Shown: positions 3,021 to 26,797 of the stretch, piece by piece
Layout: each line of letters starts with the position of its first letter
Numbering within the stretch: position 1 is the first letter of the stretch
Source: a virus
Virus record (IMG/VR): IMGVR_UViG_3300008266_000359
Span: 1 to 28,769 of that record
Direction: 5' to 3' (one strand)
Length of the DNA stretch: 28,769 nt
Notes under the pieces: generated by a model
The model's input: only the letters and a program-made list of their open reading frames with translations
Databases searched by the model: none
Told to the model about the DNA's origin: nothing
Program-made: the position numbers and the translations under genes

Positions 3021-3180
3021 TGTCGATAAGTTATTATCGTTCGTATTGATGCGCGTTGTATTTTATTTTTATTTATATATCCCTAAAGGGATATATAAAT
3101 AAAAATAAAATCAACTACGCGTGTCAATAAATTTTTTCGGTCAATTCCAACACTTGCTTGGGATTTATTTCGTACATTCG
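3021..3180 (+). repeat. Regulatory cassette copy 1: long hairpin, T6 tract, promoter-like motif
   Basis: This intergenic element occurs again at 21142-21303 in the same orientation. It begins TGTCGATAAGTTATTATCG. A perfect 24-bp inverted repeat follows (3061-3084 with 3087-3110, loop AA, core CCCTAAAGGG). An outer imperfect stem pairs TATTGATGCGCG (3044-3055) with CGCGTGTCAATA (3118-3129), including two G-U pairs if it forms in RNA. T6 lies at 3132-3137. A promoter-like CTTG-N16-TACATTCG ends at 3180, 17 bases before the portal start. The two copies differ in the stem, yet each remains perfectly paired. The function is not known. A terminator-promoter insulator or a replication-related site is plausible. 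Confidence 0.85.
3044..3137 (+). terminator. Candidate giant terminator hairpin with T6 tail
   Basis: An approximately 86-nt hairpin has a 24-bp perfect A/T-rich inner stem and a 12-bp outer stem, and is followed within a few bases by T6 (3132-3137). This is the layout of a Rho-independent terminator with an unusually long stem. It lies between the Nmad1-like gene and the portal gene, so it could separate the terminase transcript from the structural transcript. Because the inner stem is nearly all A/T with a two-base loop, cruciform extrusion or protein binding is an alternative. Confidence 0.5.
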
Positions 3181-3196
3181 TACGGGATCCCGTATT

Positions 3197-4402
3197 ATGG
3201 CCGAATCACAAAACACAATCCTCGACCGCGTTCGCGGTTTGTTCCGCGCGTCACCGAATAACCCGTCGACGTCGTTGGCTAAACCCGCCGAATGGTTGTT
3301 CTCGGACGAACGTTCGAAAACGGGTGTTTCCGTAAACGAAAAATCCGCGATGACCTTTTCCGCGGTTTGGGCCTCCGTTCGCATCTTATCGGAAACAATC
3401 GGTTCGCTGCCGTGGAACGTTTACACCATCGAAGGCGAATCGCCCGTCGTGGTAACGGGTAACCCCATCGGCCAACTGCTTCACCGCCCAAATTCGATGA
3501 TGACGTCGATGGTGTTCCGCGAAACGATGATGGCGCACCTTTGCCTACACGGAAACGCGTACGCATTCATCGAGCGCGACGGCACGGGCAAGCCAACCAA
3601 ATTGGTTCCGATTCACCCGCTGCGTGTTGAGGTCAAAGTCGTCGACGGCGAGAAATTTTACCACGTTGACAAAAAAGAGGTATACGCCGATTTCGAAATG
3701 ATCCACGTCTGCGGATTGTCGTTCGACGGCGTTGTCGGTTTGTCACCGATCAAGGCCGCCCGCGAAACCTTCGGCATTGGTTTGGCGGCAAACCAGTTCG
3801 GCGCCGAATTCTTCGGCAACGGCGCAAACGTCGGTGGCGTGCTAACGCACCCCGGTCGTTTGTCCGACGAAGCATACGTTCGTTTGCGCCAATCGTGGGC
3901 CAACTCGTACGGCGGTTTGGGTAACTCGCACAAAACGGCAATCCTCGAAGAGGGAATGCGTATCGAGAAAATGACGATTCCGCCCGACCAAGCGCAGTTC
4001 CTACAAACGCGCCAATTCCAAACGCAAGAGGTCGCCCGCTGGTTTTTAATCCCGCCGTATATGCTCGGCGATTTGTCGCAGTCGTCCACGCGCGCAAACA
4101 TCGAGGAACAAGGTATTCAATTTGTCCGCAATACGATTCGCCCGTGGGCGGTTCGCTGGGAACAAGAATTCACCGACAAATTGTTCGGTATGGATTCAAC
4201 GTTGTTCGTTCAGTTCAACCTCGAAGGTCTGCTTCGTGGTGACATTAAATCACGATACGATGCGTACGCCGTCGGCCGCCAATGGGGTTGGTTGTCGGTG
4301 AACGACATTCGCAAAAAAGAAAATCTCGGCGACGTTGAAGGTGGCGACGTGTACCTTCAGCCGCTGAATATGGTCAACGCCGGAAACGACGAAGGTATCT
4401 AA
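3197..4402 (+). CDS. Portal protein (HK97 family)
   Basis: A 401-residue portal starting at ATG 3197. A TTG-initiated extension at 3158 is unlikely because it would overlap the promoter-like motif of the upstream cassette. Recognisable blocks include VWASVRILSETIGSLPWNVY, HGNAYAFIERD, a GVVGLSPIKAARETFG segment, and VARWFLIPPYMLGDL with the nearby SSTRANIEEQ typical of HK97-type portals. Twelve copies form the ring through which DNA enters and leaves the capsid and to which the connector attaches. The length matches the family, so it looks complete. It opens the structural gene block and is followed after three bases by the maturation protease. Confidence 0.96.
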   Translation: MAESQNTILDRVRGLFRASPNNPSTSLAKPAEWLFSDERSKTGVSVNEKSAMTFSAVWASVRILSETIGSLPWNVYTIEGESPVVVTGNPIGQLLHRPNSMMTSMVFRETMMAHLCLHGNAYAFIERDGTGKPTKLVPIHPLRVEVKVVDGEKFYHVDKKEVYADFEMIHVCGLSFDGVVGLSPIKAARETFGIGLAANQFGAEFFGNGANVGGVLTHPGRLSDEAYVRLRQSWANSYGGLGNSHKTAILEEGMRIEKMTIPPDQAQFLQTRQFQTQEVARWFLIPPYMLGDLSQSSTRANIEEQGIQFVRNTIRPWAVRWEQEFTDKLFGMDSTLFVQFNLEGLLRGDIKSRYDAYAVGRQWGWLSVNDIRKKENLGDVEGGDVYLQPLNMVNAGNDEGI

Positions 4403-12871: not shown

Positions 12872-15800
12872 ATGGCCGTTCGTCTTTATTCCGAGTTTAA
12901 ATCCGACCAAGGGGATCAATACAAAATTGAAATCCACGACACGCAATGGTTGGCCGCGTCGACGACATTCAACGTCGATTCACGCGGTTTCGAACTGACG
13001 TACGAGGGTGAAACCGACGACATCGTTTCGCCAATCGTATCGTCACGTTTGACGTTCGGCGCATACGCTACGGACAACACGTTCGAAACGTTCATCGACA
13101 CGCTGAAATTGTTTCAAGAAAACCGATTCCGCGTTGTCGTGTACCGATCCGAAACCATCACGGGGCGCAACGTCGACAACGGATTGGTGATGCAATCGTT
13201 GTTGACGAATGAAGGTGACACGGAATACCAATTGTTTTGGATTGGTTGGTTGACGCAAGACCTCGTTTCGGTCGAGGACGCGTCCGCGCCATACATTTAT
13301 GAAATCACGGCAACGGACGGCATCGGACGTTTGGCGAACGTTGAATATGACGAGGCGAATACCATAATCGAAACCAATGGATTGCAGTTGACGCGCGTCA
13401 CCGACGTGCTGAAAAACGCATTGACGAACATTGGTACGGCCGACCTTTGGGGTGCGTCCGACGTATTCTTTGAAACGGCAGTTGACTGGTGGGAAACGAA
13501 CGCGCAAACATATTCGACGTCGGTTGACCCCGCCGTGAATCAAGCGTTCGACGTTCGGTATTTCAACGAACGCGATGACGACGGCAACGTCGTATATCCG
13601 TCAACGTTGGAAATACTGCGTCAAATGGCGACGTTGTACAACGCGCGCATTTTTATGCAACGCGGTCGATTCGTTTTCGAACAATACGGCAACCGCGACA
13701 CGTCGTCGCGTTACGTTTCACGATACACAAAAACCGCGTCGGCAATTTCGCGAACGTTGGTTTCCGACGACGTCGTTTTCGACCAAACGTTGTACGGCGC
13801 ACGTCGTTCGGGAAACAATTGGAATTTTTTACCCGCCGCACAAACGGCGAAAATCCATTATGTTCAGCGGTTCCTAAACCCATTCAACGCGTTCGGTTTG
13901 TTCCGATTCCGCGTGTCGCCAAATTCATATACCGCGGGATTCATCGCCGGCGGTTCGGGCGTTCAACTTGGTATGGGAACCGCCGAGTTCAACGTGAAAA
14001 TCGTTGGCGCCGCATCGCTAACGGCGCCAATTTTCCCCGTGTTCAAAATGCGAATCCGCATCAAAGATTCGTCAACGGGTACGTTTTATTATTGCAACCG
14101 ATCATACAATGGCGTCGCAACGGGTGGCGCAATGTTTGGAATACCGGCGTGGTCAACAACCGCGGGTGAATACTATTTTGATTTGCCCGCATTCTTCACG
14201 TCGGGAATCGCCGTCGTCAAATATCCCGTTCGCATAATCACGCCCGACATGCCGGTCAACGGCGAATTGGATTTTCAATTGCAATTGCACGGCGTGTTCC
14301 GTTCGTCGAATGGTTCGGCATATACGCCGTCGCAACCCGTATTGTTCGACACGACGTTCGTGTTTGACATCAGCACCGACGGCGCAACCAACGCGCCGGG
14401 TGCGACGTTCTCGTCGGTCAACGCCGAGGCGGGCATTGATTCACGATTGACAATTGATTTGGGCGACGTAGTGATCGCGGACGGCCCATTGCAATCGGGA
14501 CACTTGGCCGCGTACAATGGTTCGGCGTGGATTGGTACACAAGATTGGCGCAAAGGTTCCAGCGGAACGGCGTTGCCGATTTTGAAGTTGTTGTCGAACG
14601 AAACGCTGGCGTTGCACGTACGCCCGATCGAACAATATAACGGAAACGCAATATACGCGTTCGATTTCGGCCAACGCATTGTGTTCGATTCCGACGCGTA
14701 TTTGATGACGTCGGGAACATACACGGCGAACAACGACGAATGGAACGGCACGTGGTACAAAATCCAAACCATTCGTGCGTCCGTTTCTGCGATTGATCCC
14801 GTCGATGATTTGGTTGAACGTTCAACGCTTAATTCCGCTACGACGTCGGGCGTATCGCCAAACGATATTGTCGGCGGCCGAATCGGCGGGATGGTTGTTG
14901 ATATTGAAAACAAAAAGGTCGGCCCATTCGAACAAACCGCAACGGGCGGTAAAATCGGCGGTACGTTGGACGTCACCGGCAACGCCGTGTTCGACGCCAA
15001 CGTTCAAGTTGATGGCGATACGACGATTGTCGGAACCATCGACGTGACCGATTTGGAGGTGTCCAACGATTTGTCCGTCACGGGATCGTCAACGTTGGGC
15101 GGGTTGTCTGCCGGCACCACGACGTTGGGCGCATCGACCATTTCGTCCGCATCGGTAACGGGCAACACGTCCGTTGGCGGTACGTTGGGTGTAACGGGAA
15201 CGTCAACGCTCGGCACGCTGAACGCGGGAACGTCAACACTTGGTTCGGCATCGGTTACGGGCAACACGTCCGTCGGCGGTACGTTGGGTGTCACCGGCAC
15301 GGCAACGCTTGGAACGCTGAACGCGGCGGCCACGTCGGTGACGACGTTGGCGGCATCGTCAAACACCACGATTGGTGGAACGTTGGGCGTCACCGGCACG
15401 TCAACGCTCGGCACATTGAACGCCGCGGCGACGTCCGTTTCAACCCTCGCCGCATCGTCAAACGCCACGATCGGTGGAACGTTGGGTGTCACGGGGAAAT
15501 CAACCCTCGGAACGCTTGAGGCGGGATCGTCCACGTTGGGCGCGTCAACCATTGGTTCAGCCGTCGTCACGGGTGAAACCGAACTAATCGGCGCAACGCG
15601 AATCGTGGAATCGTTGCAAGTCGACCGCGCCGCATCGTTCACGCAAGGCGTCAACGTCGGCGGTGGCGAGGGCATCGTCACCAACGGATTGGTGTTCGGA
15701 TTGGACGTCAACGCATTTTTGATGAACGTCATCGGCCCATCGAAGATTGACGGCACGTTAAACGTCGCCGCCGCCGCAACCATTGGTTCGGAACTGAACG

Positions 15801-16690
15801 TCGGCGGAACGTCACGATTGGCGGACATCACCGCAACGGACGCATCGTTGTCGACGTTGGAAACGTCGGGCGCGGCAACCATCGGTCAAACGCTGGACGT
15901 CGTTGGGCGAACGTCAACGCAATACGTTCAACTCGATACGGACTTTGTTCCGAACGGCGAACCAGCGGGCGCATTTTATTGGGATCCCGACGGCGGAATC
16001 GCAGCCGTTCGCGGCATCGATGGCGTTTCGTTGGATTTGAACGAAAAGGAAATATGGTTCGTGAAAAACCAAACGGGTTCGTCGATTGCGGCGGGTTCGG
16101 TGGTTTACGCGGCGGGAACGCTGGGTGCGTCGGGACAATTGTTGATTGCGAAAATGATTGCGAACGGAACCATAAACGCGAAATACTACCTCGGCATCAC
16201 GCAATCGACGATTGCAAACGGCGCCGACGGGTACGTCGTTCGCGTCGGTAAAATCAAAGGACTGAACACCACGGCGTGGAACGACGGCGACGTGTTGTAC
16301 GTCGATGAAACGACGGCGGGTGCATTGTCCGATACCGAACCAACGGCGCCGAACCTCAAATTGCCGACGGCGTTTGTCGTTCATTCGGCGGCCAACGGAA
16401 CGATTGCCGTACGCCAAACGGCGGGGACGTATTTGTACGAATCGCACGACGTTCAAATCGTATCGGCGACCACGAACGAGGTATTGGCGCGCACGTCATC
16501 GGGACGATGGGAAAATAAAACCATCGATTCGTTGTTGTCGACGTCGGATCAAACGCCGACGGAAACCGACCAATCGTCGTTCAGTAAGGTCTACGGCGGT
16601 TCGGGTACGATGATGGGCGACCCCGAAATATGGATGCCCATAACCATTGGTGGGGTTGACTACCTCATTCCGTTGTACCTCGCACCATAA
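12872..16690 (+). CDS. Large tail hub/fibre protein with 33-residue repeats
   Basis: A 1272-residue protein. The N-terminal part (MAVRLYSEFKSDQGD, then YEGETDDIVSPIVSS) resembles the hub/baseplate domain placed after tape measures in marine Bacteroidetes phages. The middle (about 250-690) is beta-rich. From about residue 696 a Gly/Thr/Ser-rich repeat region follows, with four exact-period units built on GGTLGVTG at residues 769, 802, 835 and 868, suggesting a beta-helical or triple-stranded shaft. The C-terminal part (AGSVVYAAGTLGASGQ, VGKIKGLNTTAWNDGDVLYVD) resembles repeated modules in phage fibre tips. It probably combines tail-tip attachment and receptor contact. Domain limits are approximate. 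Confidence 0.8.
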   Translation: MAVRLYSEFKSDQGDQYKIEIHDTQWLAASTTFNVDSRGFELTYEGETDDIVSPIVSSRLTFGAYATDNTFETFIDTLKLFQENRFRVVVYRSETITGRNVDNGLVMQSLLTNEGDTEYQLFWIGWLTQDLVSVEDASAPYIYEITATDGIGRLANVEYDEANTIIETNGLQLTRVTDVLKNALTNIGTADLWGASDVFFETAVDWWETNAQTYSTSVDPAVNQAFDVRYFNERDDDGNVVYPSTLEILRQMATLYNARIFMQRGRFVFEQYGNRDTSSRYVSRYTKTASAISRTLVSDDVVFDQTLYGARRSGNNWNFLPAAQTAKIHYVQRFLNPFNAFGLFRFRVSPNSYTAGFIAGGSGVQLGMGTAEFNVKIVGAASLTAPIFPVFKMRIRIKDSSTGTFYYCNRSYNGVATGGAMFGIPAWSTTAGEYYFDLPAFFTSGIAVVKYPVRIITPDMPVNGELDFQLQLHGVFRSSNGSAYTPSQPVLFDTTFVFDISTDGATNAPGATFSSVNAEAGIDSRLTIDLGDVVIADGPLQSGHLAAYNGSAWIGTQDWRKGSSGTALPILKLLSNETLALHVRPIEQYNGNAIYAFDFGQRIVFDSDAYLMTSGTYTANNDEWNGTWYKIQTIRASVSAIDPVDDLVERSTLNSATTSGVSPNDIVGGRIGGMVVDIENKKVGPFEQTATGGKIGGTLDVTGNAVFDANVQVDGDTTIVGTIDVTDLEVSNDLSVTGSSTLGGLSAGTTTLGASTISSASVTGNTSVGGTLGVTGTSTLGTLNAGTSTLGSASVTGNTSVGGTLGVTGTATLGTLNAAATSVTTLAASSNTTIGGTLGVTGTSTLGTLNAAATSVSTLAASSNATIGGTLGVTGKSTLGTLEAGSSTLGASTIGSAVVTGETELIGATRIVESLQVDRAASFTQGVNVGGGEGIVTNGLVFGLDVNAFLMNVIGPSKIDGTLNVAAAATIGSELNVGGTSRLADITATDASLSTLETSGAATIGQTLDVVGRTSTQYVQLDTDFVPNGEPAGAFYWDPDGGIAAVRGIDGVSLDLNEKEIWFVKNQTGSSIAAGSVVYAAGTLGASGQLLIAKMIANGTINAKYYLGITQSTIANGADGYVVRVGKIKGLNTTAWNDGDVLYVDETTAGALSDTEPTAPNLKLPTAFVVHSAANGTIAVRQTAGTYLYESHDVQIVSATTNEVLARTSSGRWENKTIDSLLSTSDQTPTETDQSSFSKVYGGSGTMMGDPEIWMPITIGGVDYLIPLYLAP
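14957..15570 (+). repeat. In-frame 99-bp tandem repeats in fibre shaft
   Basis: The core GGCGGTACGTTGGGTGT or close variants begin at 15176, 15275, 15374 and 15473, each exactly 99 bases (33 codons) apart. A more distant relative of the core occurs at 14957. The repeats encode GGTLGVTG followed by STLGTLNA-type strands. They are coding, not intergenic. The regular period fits a beta-solenoid or fibre shaft that can lengthen or shorten by recombination. Confidence 0.85.
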
Positions 16691-21093: not shown

Positions 21094-21114
21094 TTATTCC
21101 GAACCAATTGAATG

Positions 21115-21136
21115 ACCCGCTTCGGCGGGTTTTTTT
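21115..21136 (+). terminator. Rho-independent terminator closing the late operon
   Basis: ACCCGC (21115-21120), loop TTCG, GCGGGT (21125-21130), then a T-run to 21136. It lies 22 bases after the spanin stop codon and just before the second hairpin cassette. A UUCG-type tetraloop and a GC stem make it a strong terminator. It ends the structural and lysis transcript. Confidence 0.92.
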
Positions 21137-21141
21137 GTTTA

Positions 21142-21303
21142 TGTTGATAAGTTATTGCCGTCCGTATTGATGCGCCGTTTATTTTATTTATTTATATATA
21201 TCCCTAAAGGGATATATATAAATAAATAAAATCAACAACGCGTGTCAATAGTTTTTTAGGGTGAACAAAATTTGGTTTGGAATCAATTTGTGTCGTACGT
21301 TTG
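21142..21303 (+). repeat. Regulatory cassette copy 2: long hairpin, T6 tract, promoter
   Basis: Second copy of the element at 3021-3180. It starts TGTTGATAAGTTATTGCCG. A perfect 25-bp inverted repeat follows (21181-21205 with 21208-21232, loop AA, core CCCTAAAGGG). The outer stem pairs TATTGATGCG (21165-21174) with CGTGTCAATA (21241-21250). T6 lies at 21252-21257. A near-consensus promoter (TTTG at 21271, TACGTTTG at 21296) follows. The distance from outer stem to promoter box differs by only two bases between copies. Stem sequences differ between copies, but each arm matches its own partner. Confidence 0.88.
21271..21303 (+). promoter_or_regulatory. Bacteroidetes-type promoter for the early block
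   Basis: TTTG (21271-21274), 21 bases, TACGTTTG (21296-21303). This fits the Bacteroidetes primary sigma consensus TTTG-N19-21-TAnnTTTG. Transcription would start near 21310, about 18 bases upstream of ATG 21328, with an A-rich leader of AAAC repeats ending CAAACGCA. A second TTTG at 21276 has 16-base spacing, the same as the corresponding motif in cassette copy 1. Confidence 0.75.
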
Positions 21304-21327: not shown

Positions 21328-21507
21328 ATGGAAAACCACGAAACGTACCTCGGTAAAGCAATGATTCAAACCGCCATCGGTGTTGTGCTGGGCGTAACCG
21401 CCGCATCGCACACGTCAATGACGTGGACAATCATTCTCGGAACGCTTGCATTGGTATGGTGTGCAGCCGCGCACGACAACTTCAACAAATACGAACGTCG
21501 GGGCTGA
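21328..21507 (+). CDS. Small membrane protein
   Basis: A 59-residue protein starting at ATG 21328 after an A-rich leader. An in-frame extension to 21277 would run through the promoter and is rejected. It has two hydrophobic segments (MIQTAIGVVLGVTAASHTS and TWTIILGTLALVWCAAA) and a charged C-terminus DNFNKYERRG. It is the first gene after cassette copy 2 and has its own terminator at 21550, so it is transcribed as a single-gene unit. That suggests strong early expression. Its function is unknown; an inner-membrane superinfection exclusion or host-takeover role is only a guess. Confidence 0.72.
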   Translation: MENHETYLGKAMIQTAIGVVLGVTAASHTSMTWTIILGTLALVWCAAAHDNFNKYERRG

Positions 21508-21549
21508 CGTTTGTTTGTTTGTTTCTTTTATTCCGAAGCCCCGAACACG

Positions 21550-21577
21550 CCCCGCCCGTCAAACGGCGGGGTTTTTT
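21550..21577 (+). terminator. Rho-independent terminator after small membrane protein
   Basis: CCCCGCC (21550-21556), an eight-base loop, GGCGGGG (21565-21571), then T6 to 21577. It isolates the small membrane gene from the SSB gene, which has its own promoter at 21605-21636. Confidence 0.92.
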
Positions 21578-21604
21578 ATTGTGGATAATTTTATACACGG
21601 CGTG

Positions 21605-21668: not shown

Positions 21669-22184
21669 ATGAACAAACCCGATTTCCAAAAAGGTGTCCG
21701 CGTCATTTTGTCCGGCACCGCACAATGGGCGCAACTGACGCCCAAATCCGGCCCAAACAAAATGGCCAATAAATACCAATGCGATTTGATGCTCGACGAA
21801 GCATCGGTCGCACAACTTGAAGCGCTCGGCGCATACAAGTTCGTCCAAATCAAAGGTGTGGACGGCAAACCCAAATACGAGGTTCCCGCCGTTCGCATCA
21901 AAGCCAACAACCCGCCCAACGTGTTCGATACGCACAAAGCGACGTTCGACGATTACATCAACAACGGATCCACGTTGAAGACCAACTGCATCGTCAAAGC
22001 GTACGAATACAACGGCAAAAAAGGTTTGTCGGTATGGGTGAACGACGTCATCGTTCTAACGCTCGCCGAGCGTGGCGAGGGTGGCGGTACGCCGTCCGAC
22101 TTTTTTGATGGCGTGGTACCAACAACCCCGTCGTTTAGCAACGAACCCGTGAACGCGACCGAGGATGACAATTTCCCGTTCTAA
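21669..22184 (+). CDS. Single-stranded DNA-binding protein (T7 gp2.5-like)
   Basis: A 171-residue OB-fold-like protein. The block FDDYINNGSTLKTNCIVKAYEYNGKKGLSVWVNDVIVLTL matches the gp2.5/DUF2815 pattern (N/D-G-S-x-V/L then a KKGLS-type strand and a V-x-V-x-x-L strand); it is given here in pieces as FDDYINNGSTLKT and GKKGLSVWVNDVIV. The C-terminal tail is acidic and ends TEDDNFPF, like the D-D-x-P-F tip of SSB proteins that recruits replication partners. It protects single-stranded DNA and coordinates replication and recombination. It begins the replication operon and overlaps the next gene by 20 bases. Confidence 0.82.
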   Translation: MNKPDFQKGVRVILSGTAQWAQLTPKSGPNKMANKYQCDLMLDEASVAQLEALGAYKFVQIKGVDGKPKYEVPAVRIKANNPPNVFDTHKATFDDYINNGSTLKTNCIVKAYEYNGKKGLSVWVNDVIVLTLAERGEGGGTPSDFFDGVVPTTPSFSNEPVNATEDDNFPF

Positions 22185-22593
22185 CGTCGTTGATCGGATT
22201 ATGCACGCCGAATGGCTGGTTCAGTTCGCCGAGAACTGGGCCGGCCTATCGGACGGCGTAATCAAACGCTCGTCACGGATGGCGAACATCAACGAGGTGC
22301 GCCGTATGGTGATCGCGTACGCGTACTATGAAATCGGTTTGTCGCAAATGCAAACCGCCGCCGTAGTCGGACGCAAACACCCAGCCGTTCACCATCAGTT
22401 GACCGAGCATAACGAATCACTGTCAATGGTTGGGAATACAAACCGACAATTGAACCCAACGTATGCTCGCACGTACAAAATGTTTTGCGACGACGTTGCG
22501 TACCATTCACGCACGCAAGACGCGGAATACCTACAACGGGAAATTGCCCGTTTACAAATGTTGTTAAACGATTTACAAAAGGAAACAAAATGA
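22165..22593 (+). CDS. DnaA domain IV-like DNA-binding protein
   Basis: A 142-residue protein with a helix-turn-helix segment (NEVRRMVIAYAYYEIGLSQM and AAVVGRKHPAVHHQLTEHN) that resembles DnaA domain IV. There the pattern R-x-x-A-x-Y-L precedes a helix-turn-helix ending G-R-x-H-x-x-V-x-H. No AAA+ ATPase domain is present, so it is only the DNA-binding part plus a C-terminal coiled coil (EYLQREIARLQMLLNDLQKE). It may bind the phage origin or act as a regulator. Its position between SSB and RecE-like genes supports a replication role. Origin binding is inferred. Confidence 0.68.
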   Translation: MTISRSNVVDRIMHAEWLVQFAENWAGLSDGVIKRSSRMANINEVRRMVIAYAYYEIGLSQMQTAAVVGRKHPAVHHQLTEHNESLSMVGNTNRQLNPTYARTYKMFCDDVAYHSRTQDAEYLQREIARLQMLLNDLQKETK

Positions 22594-23464: not shown

Positions 23465-23697
23465 ACCGCGTTGCCGAGTTCGCGCATAACGCGCGTTCGA
23501 TTGCCGAGCGCTGGGAATCCGACGAATTGATCGGGTTGTGCGACGACATCGAAATAATGGTCGCATTTTGCGAAATGAACCTACCAAATTATGCCCTTAC
23601 CACGTACCTTGCCGGAACTGCGCCAATTCGCCACACGGGTGAACGCGACGAAATACGCCAACATTCCCGCGGCGGCGATCCCGAAGCCGACGTTTAG
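23440..23697 (+). CDS. Hypothetical protein
   Basis: An 85-residue frame from ATG 23440 (MADVTERLNRVAEFAHNARS), overlapping the RecE-like gene by 25 bases. The first 50 residues look like two amphipathic helices with an acidic middle (ESDELIGLCDDIEIM). The last 35 residues overlap the VRR-NUC gene by 107 bases in another frame and read less like protein. It may be a small regulator or a nuclease partner. A long overlap of this kind makes the 3' end uncertain. Confidence 0.5.
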   Translation: MADVTERLNRVAEFAHNARSIAERWESDELIGLCDDIEIMVAFCEMNLPNYALTTYLAGTAPIRHTGERDEIRQHSRGGDPEADV

Positions 23698-24022
23698 CGA
23701 CACGACGGCAAATGGACTTACCAACGCGATCATTTACGACCTCGTTCACGTGTGGGGTGGCGCGGCATACCGAATCAACAACGGCGCCACGTATGACGGC
23801 AAAAAGGGTGTATATCGTGCGGGCGTCACCCGCCGTGGAATACCCGACATCATTGGTGTGGTCGGTGGACGATTCATCGGCATCGAGGTAAAAATCGGAA
23901 CCGACCGCCAATCGGCGCACCAACGTGAGGTCGAGGACGAAATCACCCAAGCGGGCGGTTTTTATTTCATCGCGAAAACGTACACCGATTATGCTGGAAA
24001 AATCGCCGCGGCGCTCGGATAA
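23591..24022 (+). CDS. VRR-NUC domain nuclease
   Basis: A 143-residue VRR-NUC-type protein. The catalytic core has D86 in GIPDIIG and E99/K101 in IGIEVK, followed by the QSAHQREVEDEITQAGG helix and FYFIAKT strand typical of the family, with an N-terminal helix around ANGLTNAIIYDLV. VRR-NUC proteins are Holliday-junction or flap-type nucleases, common in phage replication blocks. ATG 23591 is taken as the start, though the conserved domain begins only around residue 37. It overlaps the next gene at its 3' end. Confidence 0.85.
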   Translation: MPLPRTLPELRQFATRVNATKYANIPAAAIPKPTFSDTTANGLTNAIIYDLVHVWGGAAYRINNGATYDGKKGVYRAGVTRRGIPDIIGVVGGRFIGIEVKIGTDRQSAHQREVEDEITQAGGFYFIAKTYTDYAGKIAAALG

Positions 24023-24431
24023 GCGAAACGGCGAATGGGCCGAAGCGCAGTTCGTCGCCGACGCAATGCGCCAAGGGTTTGACGTGTTCCGACCGATTGG
24101 TGATTCCGCGTCGATTGACTTCATCATTTCGAAGCGGAACATCATTCAAACGATACAAGTCAAATCCACGTGGGTCGATTACAACGGCAAATCGAAATGG
24201 AACCTCGGCAAAGGTTCCGAATCGAAGGGGCGATATACGGACGAGGACGTCGATTTTTTCGCTTTATACGACGGAACGTTGAACGCGTGGCGGTTCGTCC
24301 GCCCCGAACACACGAACGGACAAAAGACATTTAGAATACATCAAAACGAAACAAACAAACTTGAAAACTGGAATGACCTCGAAACACGACATCGCGGACA
24401 TCGCGCGTCGGTACCTCGCCGCGGGATTTAG
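23991..24431 (+). CDS. PD-(D/E)XK endonuclease-like protein (PDDEXK_5-like)
   Basis: A 146-residue protein starting at ATG 23991, preferred over a start at 23925 that lies deep within the VRR-NUC gene. It has the pattern K-R-N-G-E-W-A-E-A-Q (E18 possible), then IDF (D43) and IQVKST (Q56, K58), where Gln replaces the more usual Glu before x-K. That variant occurs in the PDDEXK_5 family. DEDVDFFALYDGTLNAWRFV follows. The last 20 residues, overlapping the primase gene, are low-complexity and basic and may not be conserved. Its role is probably DNA cutting or repair, but the substrate is unknown. Confidence 0.7.
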   Translation: MLEKSPRRSDKRNGEWAEAQFVADAMRQGFDVFRPIGDSASIDFIISKRNIIQTIQVKSTWVDYNGKSKWNLGKGSESKGRYTDEDVDFFALYDGTLNAWRFVRPEHTNGQKTFRIHQNETNKLENWNDLETRHRGHRASVPRRGI

Positions 24432-26349
24432 CCCCGTACCATTGGTGCGCGGGGAAAAGCGCCCCGCGGTAAAAAATTGGCAACGCCTTGGTTCGGAACC
24501 CATCAGTTGGGCCGACACCGAACAAATGTTCAACGAAACGGATTCCATCGGTATCGTATGCGGGTACGACGGCCTCGAGGTATTGGACATCGACGCGAAG
24601 CACTTTGACGGCGACGAAATGACCGAGTTCATCGCGATGCTGGACGAGGCCGCGCCCGGTCTGCGCGATAAAATGACGATCCAGCACACGCGGTCGGGCG
24701 GCCAACATTGGATATACAAATGCGATGCGGTCGAGGGGAACCAAAAACTCGCACGCAACCTCGCGGGTGAAACGACGTTCGAAACACGCGGCACGGGCGG
24801 TCAAATCGTGGTGTTCCCGTCGCCGGGCTATCGTATGGCGTCCAAAATCACGATGGTTCAGCGCATCACGCCCGCCGAGCGCGACGTATTGTTCCGCTGC
24901 GCGCGGTCGGTGACAAAAACCATTGAGGTCGTGTCACGCGCTACGGCGCAGAAGGTCGCCACGGAGGTCGACGACAAAACGCCGTGGGGGGAGTTCCGAG
25001 CGACACACACGGCGTTGGAAATACTCGAAGCCAACGGATGGCGCGTCGTCGGGAGAAATGCAAAATATACATATTTGAAGCGCCCCGGCGATACGGACGC
25101 GAAAACGTCGGGCGTCATATTCAACGACACCGGTTTGTTTTGGCCGTGGACGACGTCAACGCAGTTCGACGCAGAACGCCCGTACGACGCGTTTCAATGC
25201 TTCGTCGTGCTGGAATGCAACGGCGACTTTGACGAAGGGTACCGCCAACTGCGCGCCCGCGGTTACGGCGCGACCTACACGATCGCAAACGACGTACCCG
25301 AACCCGTGGTTGAGGATGAATTGACCGAGGACGAAATGATGGCGACGCTATTGTCGCTTGAGGTGGATTCGACCATACCAGTTGAACGCCCGCCCGTCGC
25401 CGTTGACGTGTTCACGGGCGTGGAATCGTTCGTGTTGGGTTCGCTGGGTAACTTCGTGCTAATCCAAGGCAAAGCCAAATCGCGCAAATCGTATTTCGTT
25501 TCCGCCGTTGCCGCCGCCGCACTTGCCGACGGCGTCGTCGCCGAAGCGTTGCGCGGGTACATCGGCGACCGCGTGGTGTTGTACATCGACACCGAGCAAG
25601 GCGATTACCACGCAGCGAAGGGCAAAAAACGGATCCTTACGATGGCGGGGTTGAACCCGAACGAAAACCACGACCGGTTGAAGTATTTCAAGTTCCGCGG
25701 GTTGGAACGCAACCGCGAACGACTGGCATTCGTGGAATTCGCCCTATCGCGGATCCCGAACATTGGTTTGGTAATCATCGACGGCATCGTTGACCTCGCG
25801 TCGAAGGGCGTGAACGACGAAGAAGAAGCGACCGAAATCGCGTCGCGTCTTTTGAAATGGACGACCGATTACAATTGTATGATGGTGGCGATTCTGCACG
25901 AAAACAAAAACGACAAAAACGCAAAGGGTCACCTCGGCGCATATTTGGTGCAAAAGGCCGAATCGGTCGTCGGCGTGGCCAAAAACGAAAACGATGCGTC
26001 GGCGTCGACCATTACGCCCGAGTACACGCGGAATATCGAATTCCCAACGCTGACGATGCGCGTGAACAACGACGACACAATCACGATTGGCGAACACGAA
26101 GAATCGGATTTTTACGAACTTGACCGCGTATGGACGCCCGACGACCTTCAACGCATCGGCCGCAAGATAAACGGCAAGATGAAAACGGAGGTCGTGCCGT
26201 TCATTCGCGACACCGAAGGCGCGAAGCAAAAGGAGGCCACGAAGGCGCTCAACTTAATGCTCGACCAAGGAATCGTCACGTTCAGCGCGGGACGACCACA
26301 ACGCGCCATTTTTAACGACAACAACGACGAAATCGATGCACCCTTCTAA
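24373..26349 (+). CDS. Bifunctional primase-polymerase/RepA-like helicase
   Basis: A 658-residue replication protein starting at ATG 24373; the earlier TTG at 24361 is less likely. The N-terminal prim-pol domain shows VLDIDAK (D72 and D74) and SGGQHWIYK (H112). A linker follows, then a RecA-fold ATPase with Walker A GKAKSRKS (366-373), YIDTEQG (D406 to E408), and Walker B LVIIDGIVD (D470). The C-terminus has a winged-helix-like ending (KEATKALNLMLDQGIVTF). It would prime and unwind DNA at the fork. This fused layout is common in phages and plasmids. It is the largest gene of the replication block. Confidence 0.9.
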   Translation: MTSKHDIADIARRYLAAGFSPVPLVRGEKRPAVKNWQRLGSEPISWADTEQMFNETDSIGIVCGYDGLEVLDIDAKHFDGDEMTEFIAMLDEAAPGLRDKMTIQHTRSGGQHWIYKCDAVEGNQKLARNLAGETTFETRGTGGQIVVFPSPGYRMASKITMVQRITPAERDVLFRCARSVTKTIEVVSRATAQKVATEVDDKTPWGEFRATHTALEILEANGWRVVGRNAKYTYLKRPGDTDAKTSGVIFNDTGLFWPWTTSTQFDAERPYDAFQCFVVLECNGDFDEGYRQLRARGYGATYTIANDVPEPVVEDELTEDEMMATLLSLEVDSTIPVERPPVAVDVFTGVESFVLGSLGNFVLIQGKAKSRKSYFVSAVAAAALADGVVAEALRGYIGDRVVLYIDTEQGDYHAAKGKKRILTMAGLNPNENHDRLKYFKFRGLERNRERLAFVEFALSRIPNIGLVIIDGIVDLASKGVNDEEEATEIASRLLKWTTDYNCMMVAILHENKNDKNAKGHLGAYLVQKAESVVGVAKNENDASASTITPEYTRNIEFPTLTMRVNNDDTITIGEHEESDFYELDRVWTPDDLQRIGRKINGKMKTEVVPFIRDTEGAKQKEATKALNLMLDQGIVTFSAGRPQRAIFNDNNDEIDAPF

Positions 26350-26797
26350 CATCACCCGCGCGGAAACGTTCCAATGCGAAGCCGACGCAATGCTAATGCT
26401 CGGCGACCTATTCGGTTGGCGGGTACAAAAAACAACCGAGTTCGCCCGAATGGACGGCATCATTTCCAGTGCCGACAACGATATGTTGTTCGTGTACGAA
26501 TTCAAATGCCGCGACCTATCGTTGGACGAACTGAACAAAATGGGTTCGTTTCTGCTCACGTACGAGAAAATCACCGACGGGTGTCACGCCGCCCGTGTGC
26601 TGGGCGTGCCGTTCATATTGGTGGCGTATCTGCGTAAATCGGAAAACATCGTCGTGTTTCGGATCGCAAACGATAGCGGCGATTTATTGTTCGGGTTTGA
26701 CGTCAACCGCACGACGACGCGCAAAAACATTTACGGCGGTATTGTGGATCGGTACAACGCATTTTTGCCGGTATCGGAAATGAAGGTCGTACGATGA
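26336..26797 (+). CDS. Putative PD-(D/E)XK-like nuclease
   Basis: A 153-residue protein with a D-x(n)-E-x-K layout: D40 in RMDGIIS, E55 and K57 in YEFKCRDLSL, a possible E15, and then KMGSFLLTYEKITDG and VPFILVAYL strands. The core resembles a minimal restriction-endonuclease fold, making it the fourth such protein in this block. It overlaps the primase-helicase gene by 14 bases. Nuclease activity is inferred from residue spacing only. A non-catalytic relative is possible. Confidence 0.62.
   Translation: MHPSNITRAETFQCEADAMLMLGDLFGWRVQKTTEFARMDGIISSADNDMLFVYEFKCRDLSLDELNKMGSFLLTYEKITDGCHAARVLGVPFILVAYLRKSENIVVFRIANDSGDLLFGFDVNRTTTRKNIYGGIVDRYNAFLPVSEMKVVR

Follow-up and report, generated by a model that had tools for sequence, protein, structure and literature searches.

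A duplicated hairpin with matched arm changes lies beside likely promoters at two operon boundaries in a narrow clade of uncultivated phages

The window analyzed here, 28,769 bp long, is an entire IMG/VR virus record. Its genes are those of a tailed phage (terminase, portal, HK97-type head, tape measure, lysis, and replication), and the recognized ones lie on the + strand; a tRNA search of the window returned none. A Mom-like DNA modification protein (phrog_1384, E 1.6e-44) is encoded upstream of the terminase genes (1-610), and the open reading frame (ORF) at 12872-16690 holds four tandem 99-nt units (33 codons each; 15112-15507) that are 61 to 77% alike. The replication-type genes encode a Prim-Pol/helicase, a gp2.5-like SSB, exonuclease VIII, VRR/Hjc-like and PD-(D/E)XK nucleases, and a DnaA-domain-IV-like protein; nuclease-like ORFs around the Prim-Pol gene (23591-26797) match VRR-NUC/Hjc-like (weakly), PD-(D/E)XK (PF11645), and PDDEXK_14 (weakly) families. 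The DnaA-domain-IV-like protein (22165-22593, + strand), a candidate DNA-binding factor, is a helix-rich HTH protein with weak Pfam matches to HTH_23 and Bac_DnaA_C, and the best PDB matches of its predicted structure are DnaA DNA-binding-domain entries (E 0.026 and weaker).

Two sites in this genome carry copies of one element. At the first, site P, the element lies in the gap between a phrog_1485 ORF and the portal protein gene (3197-4402, + strand; phrog_12, E 8e-127), which is the first gene after it; at the second, site E, it lies behind amidase/spanin-like lysis genes and ahead of a ~59-amino-acid ORF and the gp2.5-like SSB gene of the early operon. A repeat search of the window returned a direct-repeat family at 3021-3144 and 21142-21265 (both + strand; 124 nt, 85% identical), with a start-to-start spacing of 18,121. 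The first-pass annotation had described a duplicated cassette of ~160 bp (3021-3180 and 21142-21303); the duplication stands at 85% identity, but homology is reported only to 3144 and 21265. Each unit contains a hairpin core (3044-3129 in P and 21165-21250 in E, + strand) in which outer half-sites (TATTGATGCGC and GCGTGTCAATA, at 3044-3054 and 3119-3129 in P) enclose an inner hairpin (3060-3111 and 21181-21232, + strand). In both copies, the arms of this inner hairpin pair perfectly over 24 bp and the loop is TAAA. As had been noticed, the inner arms differ in sequence between the copies (ATTTTATTTTTATTTATATATCCC versus ATTTTATTTATTTATATATATCCC), and within each copy the two arms are fully complementary. 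The stem lengths of 24 and 25 bp first given for them become 24 bp in both, the larger figure probably having arisen because the T-A pair that closes the loop was included for just one of them. The outer TATTGA/TCAATA stem is confirmed and is longer than first described, with 11 pairs in all (TATTGATGCGC/GCGTGTCAATA), two of them adjacent G.U wobbles on the + strand. Perfect arms reached at most 11 bp in 20 block-shuffled windows and 12 bp in 2000 shuffles of the element's bases, and the longest elsewhere in the window is 8 bp; therefore, the inner hairpins are not due to chance.

We searched 2.9 million viral contigs for the core, for the full pattern, and for either half-site separately and found the element in one narrow clade only, the same clade that was recovered by a portal protein search (portal 83 to 98% identical); its three subgroups are here called A (window-like), B, and C. 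Each of the six longest contigs (window, G001, G002, G004, G005, and G008) has exactly two copies of the full pattern, so that the search of related phages proposed by the first-pass annotation yielded homologous copies, two per longest genome, and its placement of the element at the two main module boundaries was borne out in six of six. Exactly two copies at fixed sites in one clade among 2.9 million contigs rule out a mobile element or MITE. A host-derived element is likewise ruled out, with 0 matches in 84,980 prokaryote genomes, as is a known RNA family, since the window has no Rfam match at gathering thresholds (two sub-threshold miRNA matches were taken as chance). Searches of INPHARED DNA returned only chance-level matches to the element, and a portal search of prokaryote genome contigs for prophage relatives found none. 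The sequences are uncultivated and mostly partial contigs, and no cultured member of the phage group was found here. Most copies have identical outer half-sites, although TerL has diverged to about 80% identity. The hairpin is a genuine, conserved element.

Sister clades hold unrelated hairpins at the same sites. Two relatives (L063 and L020; portal 68 to 70%) have long imperfect hairpins of unrelated sequence at P, and clade D (L086 to L091 and L093; TerL ~78%) has a T-rich/CCCCC-GGGGG hairpin there, whose inner core was also found at E in L085 (SSB 61%). The clade D outer stems differ between P and E yet pair in both, and the CTT/A bulges are kept. Other clade-specific states are likewise shared by the two sites, namely a CGTTT versus CGTGT left flank, a TAC loop in both G005 copies, and CCCCC in clade D. 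P and E copies therefore change together between clades, through gene conversion or a shared factor. Among the farther relatives listed (TerL 57 to 65%), ordinary terminators plus a promoter mostly take the place of such a hairpin at P. In the TerL-portal gap of L123 and L124 (TerL 57%), there is a long hairpin, TTAGCTA...GGGAGGGC / GCCCTCCC...TAGCTAA, without a T run.

Bacteroidota promoters have a TTTG / TAnnTTTG pattern, with transcription starting 4 to 5 nt after the -7 box (PMC6847099), and this sigma-A pattern, TAnnTTTG with TTTG near -33, was found beside the element. The E promoter is TTTG-N21-TACGTTTG (21271-21303, + strand), with its -7 box (21296-21303) 45 nt past the core. On the P side, a -7-like box, TACATTCG (3173-3180, + strand), lies 43 nt past the core as a putative portal/structural promoter, and the published spacing rule places its expected start at about 3185. 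The P boxes read TATTTTTG in most copies and TACATTCG in some, with no clear -33, and the promoter scan gave no -7 box match in the P copy of L004. The distance from core to -7 box is 42 to 43 nt (P) and 34 to 47 nt (E) in clades A to C and 51 to 53 nt (P) and 56 nt (E) in clade D. The window has two further good TTTG/TAnnTTTG matches (21605 and 27151), neither with a hairpin. From the promoters only, we infer that the host is probably a member of the Bacteroidota.

Behind the lysis genes, a canonical intrinsic terminator (21114-21137, + strand) has a T run that ends 28 nt upstream of the E core. In the 23-copy set, a canonical terminator stands 28 to 103 nt ahead of six of the seven E copies (none was found for L049); P copies of clade D are also preceded by canonical terminators, whereas those of clades A to C are not. 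Downstream of E, the order is promoter, small ORF, terminator (21549-21572), second promoter (21605), and SSB gene. The small ORF (21328-21507, + strand; 59 amino acids) probably encodes a membrane protein, judging hydrophobicity by eye; the small gene (21328-21577) is flanked by terminators, is preceded by the E hairpin and promoter, and is conserved in relatives (60 to 71% identity). A DnaA box, TTATCCACA (21580-21588, - strand), lies beside the 21605 promoter and is present in L041, L044, and L053 and absent in others.

We compared arm sequences over 23 distinct copies plus L081 and L092 (~25 copies). These contain 11 inner-arm sequences of 22 to 26 bp, all exactly self-complementary, with matched substitutions and matched indels; the arm-perfection check gave a total of 31, a figure in which some rows are counted twice, alignment files also having been read. 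In two gapless alignments, each of the seven variable inner pairs had changed in both of its bases (six A-T/T-A swaps and one C-G/A-T), with none changed on one side and none changed to G-U, while controls with the structure slid by 1 to 3 columns gave almost no double-sided pairs. The claim that arm changes are matched is therefore strengthened by 11 perfect haplotypes and seven of seven pairs. The loop has also inverted while the arms remained unchanged, as TAC/GTA (L014-type versus L010 and L011) and as TAAA/TTTA (L006 versus L005); these inversions rest on assembled contigs, and the GTA-type loop recurs in L010 and L011, two contigs with different flanks. Arm homogenization together with spacer inversion is a published signature of template switching (PMC8604942; PMC8794818). 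The outer 11-bp stem behaves differently: it is invariant in most copies, but L013, L081, and L092 have changes on one side only and true mismatches, so full outer-stem pairing is not essential. Unpaired substitutions in related copies, the observation that the first-pass annotation had set against its own reading, are thus absent from the inner arms and present in the outer stem. It had also left the choice between selection for pairing and copying between arms. Copying is clearly indicated, by the lack of one-sided intermediates, the A-T/T-A swaps plus one C-G/A-T change, and the loop inversions; the inner symmetry looks renewed by copying and the outer sequence looks conserved as sequence. 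Because template switching creates matched changes mechanically, covariation alone is weaker evidence of selection than had been assumed. Selection for a structure is supported by another route, since sister clades hold unrelated hairpins at both sites.

Our preferred reading, to which we give a probability of roughly 0.4, is that the hairpin is a cis-acting, promoter-linked operon-boundary element that works as a DNA hairpin or cruciform. In its favor, the element is tied to promoters at both boundaries, its arms have the wrong polarity for a terminator, and its shape and place are kept while its sequence changes. Under this model, the arms would be homogenized at the DNA level by replication template switching, as intra- or interstrand copying through the hairpin. 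The unit could be extruded readily, because its arms are AT-rich and polymerases that leave the neighboring promoter build up negative supercoils in their wake. The conserved outer half-sites might then be read by a phage or host factor, for which the protein at 22165-22593 is only a candidate, and the effect would be to set off and control the promoters that open the two operons. The outer-stem mismatches in L013, L081, and L092 count against the model. Clade D bears against pure copying between arms, in that its bulges (CTT / A) persist though copying would erase them. A more specific version strikes us as unlikely in its entirety: an extruded cruciform switch at both operon-opening promoters (or replication entry points), with symmetry renewed by template switching or hairpin processing and sequence changing in both copies together.

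An RNA element is a doubtful alternative, though one with several points in its favor. Here, the + strand transcript would form a boundary structure, such as an RNase III site, a 3′-end protector, or a put-like nascent-RNA signal at the 5′ end of an operon transcript that begins just upstream. The window copies do fold as RNA far better than shuffles (z, -8 to -10), and the outer stem carries + strand G.U wobbles in two unrelated sequence versions (two wobbles in clades A to C and two in clade D P copies), which slightly favors RNA on that strand over the DNA reading. Clade D bulges are conserved and its P/E outer-stem differences are compensatory. Readthrough RNA would contain the P hairpin in clades A to C, since no canonical terminator stands in front of it; at E (six of seven copies) and in clade D P copies, however, such a terminator does intervene. 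A conserved T-rich block ending in TATTTGG, TATTTGC, or TATTTGGT lies directly ahead of the stem in 18 of 23 copies, but it fits TAnnTTTG poorly and is absent in five (both window copies, L003, L022, and L004). The lack of an Rfam match at gathering thresholds and of G.U intermediates in the inner arms also weighs against RNA. Strand preference from folding energy is not decisive, the difference between strands being small in most A to C copies (about 0.6 kcal/mol in most copies).

A replication or packaging role is quite unlikely. In that case, the element would be a priming, initiation, or nuclease-entry site in the form of a single-strand hairpin or a cruciform, with mirrored arms as a by-product of replication; arm copying and loop flipping are indeed replication dependent, the two sites divide a ~30-kb genome, circular or permuted, into two large segments, and the phage encodes the replication-type proteins listed above. 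Yet one origin does not need two promoter-tied sites, and the single perfect DnaA box in the window lies apart from the element and is missing from some relatives. GC-skew analysis at the hairpins, suggested at first pass as a way to locate replication starts, revealed no clear switch at either site, and an origin placed by GC skew or DnaA boxes was rejected.

We consider an intrinsic, possibly bidirectional, terminator at both operon junctions very improbable. A stem-loop at such junctions, followed in clades A to C by 4 to 6 T about two nucleotides past the outer stem, invites that reading, but the 5′ arm is T-rich and the 3′ arm A-rich, and on either strand this is the reverse of what a terminator has. 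A scan for terminators around E left the hairpin out but listed 21114-21131 nearby. In clade D, about 14 nt separate the hairpin from the same CAATAGTTTT block, which assigns the T run to the promoter region. Least probable of all is a nonfunctional palindrome kept perfect by template-switch mutation alone, or an assembly artifact of palindromic sequence: template switching by itself can give matched changes and loop inversion (PMC8604942), but not readily the two fixed sites, the conserved outer sequence and promoter spacing across clades, or the substitution of other hairpins at the same two sites, and an assembly flip is unlikely given that L010 and L011, independent contigs that differ in their flanks, share a loop variant.

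Matched two-arm changes are usually taken as proof of selection on RNA pairing, and the phage element is a warning for covariation tests. In its natural series of ~25 copies, a phage hairpin is cleanly seen to be renewed by template switching, with mismatches tolerated in the outer stem. The element marks operon boundaries and likely promoters of an uncultivated phage group, probably of Bacteroidota, and yields a testable claim on how such phages separate transcription units. If the cruciform switch were true, it would be a regulatory element defined by its structure, and the replication machinery itself would keep renewing its pairing.

Several known systems share part of this picture. The putL/putR antitermination RNAs of phage HK022 resemble the element in that one phage genome has two related structured copies and these are linked to operon promoters; put follows its promoter, folds into two stem-loops within ~70 nt, and works as nascent RNA (PMC9378689), whereas the element is a single hairpin of ~85 to 90 nt and lies not downstream but upstream (34 to 56 nt) of the recognized promoter. 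Intrinsic terminators and RNase III sites at phage operon junctions are also hairpins at operon boundaries; the element differs from intrinsic terminators in its arm polarity, in having no adjoining T run in clade D, and in the separate terminators at six of seven E copies, on which grounds we rejected a simple terminator. In the phage N4 vRNAP promoters, the F plasmid Frpo, and the M13 complementary-strand origin, the hairpin itself is the polymerase or primase site; these share with the element a DNA hairpin near a start site, but the phage element has a separate TAnnTTTG promoter downstream. Quasipalindrome mutagenesis has been described in phage (Ripley 1982, as cited in PMC8604942). The template-switch mutagenesis of quasipalindromes studied by Monttinen and Loytynoja (PMC8794818) shares with our copy series arm homogenization, loop inversion, and multibase compensatory changes without G-U intermediates. 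That work concerns a mutational process, whereas the phage case shows its repeated action on one element at two fixed sites.
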